A stretch of 64,000 nucleotides of DNA, taken from contig NZ_AP018920.1 of the NCBI RefSeq assembly GCF_003945385.1, forward strand, positions 6,386,001-6,450,000, given 5' to 3'. The first letter of the stretch is position 1; each line of letters opens with the position of its first letter. This DNA comes from Pseudonocardia autotrophica. GTDB lineage: Bacteria > Actinomycetota > Actinomycetes > Mycobacteriales > Pseudonocardiaceae. Of this stretch, positions 28,657 to 30,672 are shown piece by piece. Below the pieces are notes generated by a model. It searched no databases, was not told where the DNA came from, and worked only from the letters and a program-made list of their open reading frames with translations. The translations under genes were made by a program, and so were the position numbers.

Positions 28657-29529
28657 GTGGCCAGCACGGCAGAGTGGATAGAGGGTGCGCGTCCGCGCAC
28701 CCTGCCCACGGCGATCGCCCCCGTCCTCGTCGGTACCGGCTCGGCGCTCGGGGCCGGTGTCGTCGCCCCCGGTTCCGCCCTGCTCGCGCTCCTGGTCGCG
28801 ATCGCGCTGGTGATCGGGGTGAACTTCGCCAACGACTACTCCGACGGCATCCGCGGCACCGACGACGAGCGCGTCGGACCGCAGCGGCTGGTCGGTTCCC
28901 GGGCCGCCCGGCCCGCGACGGTGAAGGCGGCCGCGTTCAGCTGCTTCGGCGTCGCGGCGCTCGCCGGGATCGCGCTGACCGCGGTGTCCGGGCAGTGGTG
29001 GCTGATCGCCGTCGGTGCGCTGTGCATCGTCGGGGCGTGGTTCTACACCGGCGGGAGCCGCCCGTACGGCTACGCGGGCCTCGGCGAGGTCGCGGTGTTC
29101 GTGTTCTTCGGCCCGGTCGCTGTACTCGGCACCGCGCTCACCCAGGCCGGGGCGGTGGACTCGGCCACCGTCGGCGCGTCCGTCGGCGCCGGCCTGCTGA
29201 CCTGTGCCGTGCTGGTGGCCAACAATCTGCGGGACATCCCCGGCGACCGGATCGCGGGGAAGTCGACGCTCGCGGTGCGGCTGGGTGGGCGCTCCACCCG
29301 GGCGCTCTACGTGGCGCTCGCCCTGGTGCCGTTCGTGATCGCCGTCGCGGCCGCGTTCGACCGGCCGGGGCTGCTGATCGTGCTGGTGGCCCTGCCCGCC
29401 GCTGTGCGCCCGGTACGCGCGGTCCTCGGTGGAGCCGATGGCCCGGACCTGATCCCGGTGCTCCGCGACACCGGCCTGTTGCTGCTCGCCTGGGCACTGG
29501 CGGTGGCGGTCGGCCTCGCCGTCGGCTGA
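28657..29529 (+). CDS. menA: MenA, 1,4-dihydroxy-2-naphthoate polyprenyltransferase
   Basis: A 290-residue integral-membrane UbiA-family prenyltransferase that attaches the polyprenyl chain to DHNA, giving demethylmenaquinone. The two Asp-rich motifs are [19 protein letters not shown] and [14 protein letters not shown], with 8-9 hydrophobic spans between and around them. [11 protein letters not shown] is the usual beginning and the length equals mycobacterial MenA. The GTG start follows a TAGGTT box by seven bases. Its last codons are duplicated just beyond the stop (GGCGGTCGGCCTCGCCG repeated 30 bp on), and a palindrome array follows. DUF4229, its usual neighbour in mycobacteria, is convergent. 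Confidence 0.93.
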
Positions 29530-29561
29530 CGGTTGGCGGTCGGCCTCGCCGGTAGCCGGCG

Positions 29562-29591
29562 GCCGGACCGTCGCGCCGGGGACGGTCCGGC
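29562..29591 (+). terminator. Terminator of menA
   Basis: GCCGGACCGTC and GACGGTCCGGC form a perfect 11-bp stem with an 8-nt loop, 33 bp after the stop. Confidence 0.7.
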
Positions 29592-29641
29592 TGCTCGGCC
29601 CCTCCCGGCCGGGTGCCGGGGCCCGGTGCGGATCGGCGGCG

Positions 29642-29672
29642 GTCCCCTCCGGTGTGCGGCCGGGGAGGGGAC
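29642..29672. terminator. Second stem-loop between menA and the palindrome array
   Basis: GTCCCCTCC and GGAGGGGAC form a perfect 9-bp stem with a 13-nt loop. It may act as a back-up terminator for either strand. Confidence 0.5.
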
Positions 29673-29710
29673 GGACGGGACAGTCCCGGGGCGGCTCACG
29701 GGTTCGGGTC

Positions 29711-30316
29711 GCGTTCCGCGGAACGCGAACGCGCGGCCGCCCGGCACCGGGACCACGGCCGCGCTCCGCCGAACGGCCGGCCGACCAGCGCCGGAGACGG
29801 AGACGGAGCGCCGCGTTCCGCGGAACGCACAAGCGACCGGTATCGGGACCGCGGCCGCGTTCCGCGGAACGCCCAGCCGCCCCAACCGCGGGGCCGACCA
29901 GCGCCAGGACCAGAGCCGGGCCGGGGCCGGAGTCCGCGGAGCACCCAGCCAAACCAGCACCACCGCCGAGCCCGCGTTCCGCGGAACGCGCAACCGACCG
30001 GCACCGGGACCGCACTCCGCAGAACGCCCAGCCGCCCAGCCCTGGGACCGCAGCCACGTTCCGCGGAACGCGCAAGCGACCGACACCGGAACCGGGGCCG
30101 CGTTCCGCGGAACGCGCGGCCGACCGGTATCGAGACCGCGACCGCACTCCGCCGAGCCCCCGGCCGACCGGTCTCCGGAACCGCAGCCGCGTTCCGCGGA
30201 ACGCTCAGGCCGGCCGTCCCGGGGTCGTGCTGCACGGGCTCCCGGGTGCCTGCCGACCGCCGATGCCGAATCCGCCGCCACCGGGAAGCCTCGGGTGCGT
30301 GCGTTCCGCGGAACGC
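29711..30316. repeat. Array of 12 palindromes GCGTTCCGCGGAACGC, about 44-bp period
   Basis: This fills most of the 828-bp non-coding gap between convergent menA and the DUF4229 gene. Exact 16-bp perfect palindromes start at 29711, 29813, 29857, 29974, 30100, 30189 and 30301; 30056 differs at one base. Decayed copies start at 29761, 29929, 30012 and 30144. Spacers are mostly 28-29 bp (range 22-96) and are related to one another (consensus near CGACCGGTATCGGGACCG), so this is a tandem array in which the palindromes have stayed far more constant than the spacers. Each copy can form a 6-bp hairpin with a CGCG loop in RNA or DNA. Every frame on both strands across it reads as repetitive AFRGT / VPRNA / RSAER peptides, which I regard as non-coding. 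Confidence 0.85.
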
Positions 30317-30357
30317 ATCGTGCCGGTGCGTGGCGTCACCACGCCCGACGGACCGGG

Positions 30358-30672
30358 TCAGTCCCGGTCGTCACCGCGCAGCTGGGCCCGCAGCGACTCC
30401 CGCTCCGCCGAACGGCGGGCGTTGGCGACCGCGAGCGCACGATCCAGCCGGGACCGGAGCCCCCGGAACAGCAGCATCGACAGCGGCAGCGCGACGATCA
30501 GCGCCACCAGCAGCGCGACGATCAGCGGCACGCCCGCGAGTCCGAGCAGCAGGGCGATGACGGCGAGCAGACCGAGCCGGGCGAGCGTGTAGAGCGCCAC
30601 CGTGGCGGCCAGGCCGGGCTCGCCGGCGCGAGCCCTCGCCGCGGCCTGCGGCGGGGGTGTCGGGGACGTCAT
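30358..30672 (-). CDS. DUF4229 small membrane protein
   Basis: A 104-residue protein with two hydrophobic spans (about residues 22-42 and 44-65) and a basic, charged C-terminus (RGLRSRLDRALAVANARRSAERESL). It fits the DUF4229 family, found beside menA in many actinobacteria. No function is known; the two-helix hairpin with a charged tail suggests a small membrane adaptor. The start at 30672 is set by a TACCCT -10 box seven bases upstream. It is convergent with menA across the palindrome array and divergent from bldC. Confidence 0.8.
   Translation of the reverse strand: MTSPTPPPQAAARARAGEPGLAATVALYTLARLGLLAVIALLLGLAGVPLIVALLVALIVALPLSMLLFRGLRSRLDRALAVANARRSAERESLRAQLRGDDRD

Follow-up and report, generated by a model that had tools for sequence, protein, structure and literature searches.

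In a 64,000-nucleotide stretch of the Pseudonocardia autotrophica chromosome, hereafter the window, the 16-bp palindrome GCGTTCCGCGGAACGC is repeated 12 times in a 606-bp array between two convergent genes, a menA-like prenyltransferase gene and a DUF4229 gene (Table 1). A mismatch scan of the window returned the copy counts given in a preliminary description of this DNA (7 exact, 1 with a single change, and 4 decayed), and Pfam agreed with the flanking genes that it had named. With up to three mismatches allowed, GCGTTCCGCGGAACGC has 11 matches in the whole window, 10 of them in the array, vs. a mean of 2.40 and a maximum of 6 in 100 shuffles. The same palindrome is dispersed over the host genome and over those of relatives, where it accompanies one subfamily of DUF222-HNH endonuclease genes.

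The gaps from copy to copy are 50, 52, 44, 72, 45, 38, 44, 44, 44, 45, and 112 bp; the period of 44–45 bp first proposed is, indeed, the commonest one (6/11). The impression that decay strikes every third unit holds roughly, but the rhythm is only approximate, the order of intact (I) and decayed (D) copies being I D I I D I D I I D I I; amplification of the array as a block is possible. It was also correctly seen that the spacers have drifted while most palindromes are unchanged: in the six true 44–45 bp units, 27% of the spacer positions deviate from the consensus, a rate at which 7 exact palindromes out of 12 would have a probability of 2e-13, and if the calculation is limited to the three units that start with an exact or one-change palindrome, the spacer rate is 13% and P = 7e-5; the alignment being gapless, these rates may be overstated. 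A measure of spacer identity that drops gap columns was uninformative (0.779 vs. 0.759 shuffled). Since the local spacers are related, the array appears to have grown locally.

Related spacers of variable length, with a UbiA-family gene and DUF4229 as neighbours, do not make an array of clustered regularly interspaced short palindromic repeats (CRISPR). Nor is the palindrome a parS site: four parS-like sites (≤2 changes from a parS consensus) lie apart, within the final 16 kb of the chromosome (L036), a region that holds parB and no copy of the palindrome. No terminator-like site (a stem-loop followed by a T-run) was found in 29400–30500, which argues against a simple terminator. All three exclusions had been made in the preliminary description and they stand. 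A plasmid search with the array DNA gave no match.

Table 1. Features of the window array, its neighbours, and related features elsewhere; positions are those of the window unless a chromosome (C1) or a stretch (L-number) is named.
Feature	Position	Strand	Remark
Palindrome array, 12 copies of GCGTTCCGCGGAACGC	29711..30316	none	related but diverged spacers
Exact palindrome	29711..29726		20-bp perfect palindrome with neighbouring bases
Decayed copy	29761..29776		3 changes
Exact palindrome	29813..29828
Exact palindrome	29857..29872
Decayed copy	29929..29944		5 changes
Exact palindrome	29974..29989
Decayed copy	30012..30027		3 changes
One-change copy	30056..30071		change at the outermost base
Exact palindrome	30100..30115
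Decayed copy	30144..30159		5 changes
Exact palindrome	30189..30204
Exact palindrome	30301..30316		112 bp from the neighbouring copy
menA-like UbiA-family prenyltransferase gene	28657..29529	+	left convergent neighbour, outside the system; Pfam
DUF4229 gene	30358..30669	-	right convergent neighbour, outside the system; Pfam
Host DUF222-HNH gene	C1 6,666,979-6,668,703 = L032:8980-10704		over the Pfam cut-offs for DUF222 and HNH
dnaX palindromes, host	L025:6899-7352		3 exact and variants
dnaX palindromes, G027	L271:3922-4399		3 exact and variants
dnaX palindromes, G002	L258:3909-4113		2 exact and variants

None of the 29 relatives read around DUF4229 has the array. In the eight closest ones, the menA–DUF4229 spacer ranges from about 105 to more than 1,100 bp, and two of them, G077 and G066 (L051, L054), hold other repeats there, of the CCCCGAGGGGCACCCTC type and the CTCCGCGCGCC type (G-numbers designate genomes, a set that includes 62 genomes of the genus, and L-numbers the DNA stretches read). 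Because relatives carry other repeats at this place, repeats in general may tend to accumulate in this convergent spacer. The DUF4229 reading frame, as distinct from the spacer, holds one exact copy in G066 and the variant GCGCTCCGCGGAGCGC in G062.

An array found in the host only, among the 30 genomes read, together with a spacer of such variable length and content and with related local units, is what one would expect of a neutral minisatellite, i.e., a single inherited palindrome amplified by slippage in a tolerant convergent spacer and then left to drift, with nothing acting in trans now. We consider this unlikely, as it leaves unexplained the exact 16-mer common to different arrays, its recurrence in other genera, and the way it co-occurs with one gene subfamily and flanks its members; the process may, however, describe the last step, amplification. 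The preliminary description had reasoned that an array missing from all close relatives and lacking a bound factor would be such a minisatellite; the first half agrees with the relatives read, but the second fails because a candidate factor exists, a DUF222-HNH protein whose gene lies about 251 kb from the array, beyond the window.

A dispersed palindrome family

The genome-wide count that had been suggested as a check was made in the host and in related genomes. The host genome (chromosome C1 of 7,246,130 bp, with dnaA at base 764) contains 29 exact copies of GCGTTCCGCGGAACGC vs. none of the reversed pattern and, with up to two changes, 57 copies vs. one. The exact copies are grouped into 12 spots; the other arrays among them have different spacers, with a period of 48 in L025, about 45/89 in L030, and 34 in L033, and the palindrome, not the repeat unit, is therefore the common element. 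As many as 24 of the 29 are outside called genes, in fetched host DNA of which 84.6% was called coding (by a simple codon-score script that misses some genes).

In Pseudonocardia, at least one exact copy was found in 27 of the 62 genomes (host included) and five or more in 22, with a maximum of 97, and a phylum-wide sample gave an exact copy in 4/396 genomes, again with the host included. A scan of named genomes, among at least 120 stretches (80 listed), gave mainly Pseudonocardia, with repeated matches in Gordonia, Williamsia, and Jongsikchunia; among the matches listed, the single scattered ones elsewhere may be due to chance. Viral contigs gave 5 exact matches.

Fourteen of the 29 exact host copies sit in convergent spacers, and the window array, taken as RNA, folds better than 20 shuffles (z −4.1), two observations that would suit hairpins serving as terminators or stabilisers of messenger RNA. 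Any array of perfect palindromes would fold better than its shuffles, however, no Rfam family was found (one match was far below its cut-off), and, besides the missing terminator-like site, copies are also present within coding sequence and flank the HNH gene on either side. RNA elements are, thus, highly improbable, and a chain of RNA hairpins, one of the three options of the preliminary description, is not retained as the cause.

As to the site itself, 63 copies with one change were collected, 32 of them changed at the outermost base, 11 at the second base, and 20 within the inner six; this pool was fetched largely via exact sites and shows which changes are tolerated (those at the edge), not their rate. 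The base just outside the 16-mer shows a weak preference for G (57% of 674 flanks, from 337 unique exact sites). Within 8 nt, the same 674 flanks hold the tags of repetitive extragenic palindromic (REP) sequences only sporadically (GTAG 1, CTAC 4, CGTC 22, and GACG 44), with no enrichment over the next 12 nt.

Some copies are found within genes. In dnaX (DNA polymerase III gamma/tau), palindromes have multiplied between the domains known to Pfam in three species (Table 1); in purB (adenylosuccinate lyase), an exact palindrome encoding RSAER occupies the same place in the host, G027, and G077 (L026:6626, L272:3814, L249:3881); and an oxidoreductase gene has a within-gene palindrome common to the host and G027. 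We did not take these shared sites as proof of selection because both members had been found via the exact palindrome.

A DUF222-HNH gene between the palindromes

Among loci whose sites are about one gene apart, DUF222-HNH genes were found between or inside the sites in genomes of Gordonia (two), Williamsia (one), and Pseudonocardia (three). Pfam recognised DUF222 in 6/7 and HNH in 7/7 of seven such proteins and, at E ≤ 0.1, in 37/38 and 38/38 of the members of our set A2. A profile built from eight proteins delimits a subfamily scoring about 450–840 bits (complete genes), vs. at most about 120 bits for other DUF222 proteins in the fetched DNA; three distant relatives of the subfamily score 438–449, and a low-scoring Rhodococcus match (L081) has a palindrome 1.4 kb off, in another gene.

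When loci were sought through the protein, palindromes (≤2 changes) were beside the gene in 27/30 and on both sides in 21/30, the query's own locus being counted. Over 44 different subfamily genes (49 rows less 5 duplicates), 41 have a palindrome within 700 bp and 33 have one on both sides, while 3 distant genes have none beside them; 27/30 is the fairer figure, since some of the 41 were found via the palindrome. In the control, palindromes were present at 0/30 other DUF222 loci, and 19 further loci had no exact copy. The multicopy DUF222 genes of G016 (10 copies) and G080 (9 copies) show no evident flanking palindrome of a different kind. Overall DUF222 copy number was tried as a correlate of the sites and rejected: 57/62 genomes have DUF222 genes, and none of the 30 top-scoring DUF222 loci read had palindromes.

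Gene and sites also occur in the same genomes. The protein search placed a subfamily gene in 24 of the 62 genus genomes, and when sites are counted as present from five copies on, gene and sites are both present in 21 genomes and both absent from 37, with sites alone in 1 and the gene alone in 3. The genome with sites only (G006) is 72% complete, the proteins of those with the gene only (G069, G013, and G028) are at 48–51% identity, and five genomes without the subfamily gene carry one or two sites. Relatedness between genomes inflates the p-value of this co-occurrence: a menA tree built from 30 of them requires the label to change 3 times.

Clustering of the sites around the gene is suggestive only: p-values against uniform positions are 0.0003 in the host, 0.008 in G027, 0.07 in G002, 0.10 in G009, and 0.82 in G034, and those by rotation are 0.03, 0.12, 0.19, 0.19, and 0.91, respectively, with 17/19 sites in the list for G002 and the origin taken from dnaA or parB.

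The host gene has palindromes upstream only. Just upstream of it, between two palindrome groups, is an open reading frame (ORF) with an Excalibur domain (L032:7415-8470; C1 ~6.6654-6.6665 Mb), possibly cargo caught between sites, and around both groups there is, by eye, an apparent partial duplication of the 3′ end of a response-regulator gene together with palindromes. In many copies (e.g., L279 ~3645, L280, and L363-L370), the DNA separating the upstream palindrome from the HNH gene includes a conserved stretch of the type GGAATTGTCGGACCC...GCCATCCT, possibly the promoter of the gene.

Signs of mobility

Two recent duplications each have one end at a palindrome, within one base. In G072, two copies (L369/L370) are 94% identical; the DNA that they share starts one base before the upstream palindrome, is unrelated further left, and extends 265 bp past the downstream palindrome. 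In G034, two copies (L281/L371) are 98% identical; their shared DNA ends at the last base of the downstream palindrome, the left edge being 23 bp outside the upstream one. Between their outer and inner palindromes, the G034 copies have flanks that resemble inverted repeats; another stretch (L276) looks like a gene-less derivative.

The spacer behind a gene for a LuxR-type response regulator (gene C) offers a syntenic comparison. It holds the cassette with its palindromes in the host, G077, G002, G027, G067, and G066, followed in five of the six by the same gene E, which was not found in the G066 stretch. In 18 further genomes with gene C, no palindrome was found in the 1.5 kb read (67 bases in G063); gene E comes after 12–134 bp in 12 of them and after 316–987 bp of other DNA in four, and was not found in two. 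As the genomes with the cassette have palindromes here and the others do not, the palindromes came with the gene, at this one site. G002 and G027 have a solo palindrome lodged between two stop codons, which G077 and G067 lack.

An HNH gene spread unevenly among close relatives recalls free-standing homing endonuclease genes. A homing gene usually interrupts its site, whereas the site is here on both sides of the gene and in many solo copies; moreover, none of the 12 short, empty gene C–gene E spacers (one site) holds a palindrome into which the gene could have inserted.

Phages and plasmids gave little. No relative is encoded in 40 candidate stretches of viral contigs; in a phage search, the Gordonia protein had no match and a Rhodococcus plasmid protein had one distant match; in a plasmid search, the Gordonia protein had one distant relative and the L280 protein none.

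Proposed system and its relation to known ones

For the N-terminal domain of the DUF222-HNH protein, a fold like that of ParB/Noc DNA-binding domains is predicted, with best alignments to Noc, ParB, and Spo0J, and an intact HNH motif lies C-terminal to it. The site, a dyad-symmetric 16-mer, resembles parS and the Noc-binding site (NBS) in length and symmetry; it differs from both in sequence, the linked protein carries an HNH nuclease, and in some genomes the gene of that protein is mobile and present in several copies. We put at even odds the proposal of a new class of REPtron, in which the dispersed parS/NBS-sized palindromes serve for recognition and transfer by an HNH nuclease with a fused ParB/Noc-type DNA-binding domain; DUF222-HNH (13E12-type) genes would then be mobile elements of one family whose palindromic sites diverge.

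These resemblances could also point to a host array organising the chromosome, in which a ParB/Noc-like protein, perhaps a domesticated DUF222-HNH, would use the sites to mark the origin half or to condense it, in the manner of Noc with NBS. In the host, all 29 exact copies are within 1.5 Mb of dnaA, and clusters of solo sites are nearer the origin than uniform in the host (p 0.007), G027 (0.006), and G002 (0.022). However, these three genomes have the HNH gene itself no more than about 0.6 Mb from the origin, the sites of G009 (p 0.91) and G034 (p 0.32) show no such tendency, and rotation makes all values non-significant (0.18, 0.09, 0.05, 0.82, and 0.16 in the host, G027, G002, G009, and G034). 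Site positions also turn over between close species and the HNH motif is intact, so we judge such a role very unlikely. The host, G034, G066, G368, and G378, all site-bearing, have a single PF17762 ParB/Noc protein each; a Noc-like ParB paralogue as binder was rejected for this reason.

The closest parallel is with REP sequences, their arrays known as bacterial interspersed mosaic elements (BIMEs), and the REP-associated tyrosine transposases (RAYT, TnpAREP), described, as far as the available text of the sources goes, together with REPtrons and REPINs as short dispersed palindromes with one DNA-processing gene among them (PMC8266576; PMC3116915). The palindromes studied here are likewise mostly intergenic, single or in tandem BIME-like arrays, linked to a DNA-processing gene, and sometimes concentrated near it. 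They are, in contrast, perfect over 16 bp and devoid of a GTAG-type tag, and the linked enzyme is DUF222-HNH and not a Y1/HUH tyrosine transposase (an unlinked RAYT elsewhere was not searched for). Because enzyme and tag differ, the palindrome system would work like REP/RAYT without being a member of it.

We, thus, favour, with a probability of about 0.7, a REP/RAYT-like two-part mobile system run by a ParB/Noc-type HNH endonuclease, with the window array as a locally amplified outpost. This is based on the array, the dispersed family, the co-occurrence, the flanking, the duplication ends, the arrival with the gene, and the predicted fold. Part one would be the DUF222-HNH gene, usually with a palindrome at both ends, and part two the solo and tandem palindromes, non-autonomous and mostly intergenic. 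The protein would bind the palindrome as a dimer and nick or cut it; repair or strand transfer would copy palindrome-bounded DNA (the gene cassette, or a bare palindrome with some flank) elsewhere, and palindromes could be mobilised in trans. A copy that lands in a tolerant spacer might be amplified, with its local flank, into an array through unequal exchange or slippage during repair; copies still recognised there would stay exact while spacers drift. Among the options of the preliminary description, a REP/BIME-like mobile palindrome family is, therefore, the best supported; multi-site protein binding is probably right insofar as a trans-acting protein would recognise the palindrome. For the window array itself, no function in the host is apparent; most simply, it does nothing for its host.

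A last rival would see in the protein a restriction-like or defence HNH nuclease, similar to McrA, with sites kept as regulatory or protected. The HNH part aligns with McrA/TagI-type domains, among others, and in Gordonia G368, a PLD/type IV restriction-like helicase gene (L282:901-3654; padloc PDLC03659, E 3e-285) is two genes downstream of a palindrome-flanked HNH gene, itself a borderline padloc match (E 9e-4). This neighbour keeps a link with defence open, yet four other subfamily proteins, including that of the host, match no padloc model, and a restriction system multiplying its own targets would be odd; we find this reading barely plausible.

DUF222-HNH repeats as such are already known, at least from the portions available, as REP13E12, a repeated and frequently recombining mycobacterial element of the same protein families (PMC13061034, PMC10589994). 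The same portions mention no dispersed partner palindrome for REP13E12, and no mycobacterial copy was compared. In the open-licence literature, insofar as its text was available, we came across neither this palindrome nor its association with DUF222-HNH, and found no DNA site assigned to these proteins. They are abundant, with at least 3,931 relatives at E ≤ 1e-30 among 7,996 candidates scored, and an exact flanking 16-bp palindrome combined with a predicted ParB/Noc-type domain gives them a concrete, testable target. If the favoured reading is true, populations of REP-like palindromes have evolved twice, the second time around an unrelated nuclease, and mobile DNA has made use of the ParB/Noc DNA-binding module.

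Other palindromes were seen as well. Long perfect palindromes, GGGCGGTTCCGCGGAACCGCCC and GGCGGTTCAGCTGAACCGCC, with the same GTTC/GAAC arms, are within the coding region of the distant genes of G069 (L333:2191) and G013 (L335:1732), and palindromes GCGTTCAGCTGAACGC are downstream of two G004 genes (L373, L374). The Rhodococcus erythropolis plasmid NZ_CP050126.1 encodes a DUF222-HNH-like protein with 39.5% identity to that of Gordonia. About 94 bp upstream of its annotated start stands another perfect palindrome of 16 bp, CGTCCCCGCGGGGACG (L401:1308-1323), which differs from GCGTTCCGCGGAACGC; it is one of two perfect palindromes of at least 12 bp in the 4 kb read and hints at divergence of the sites.
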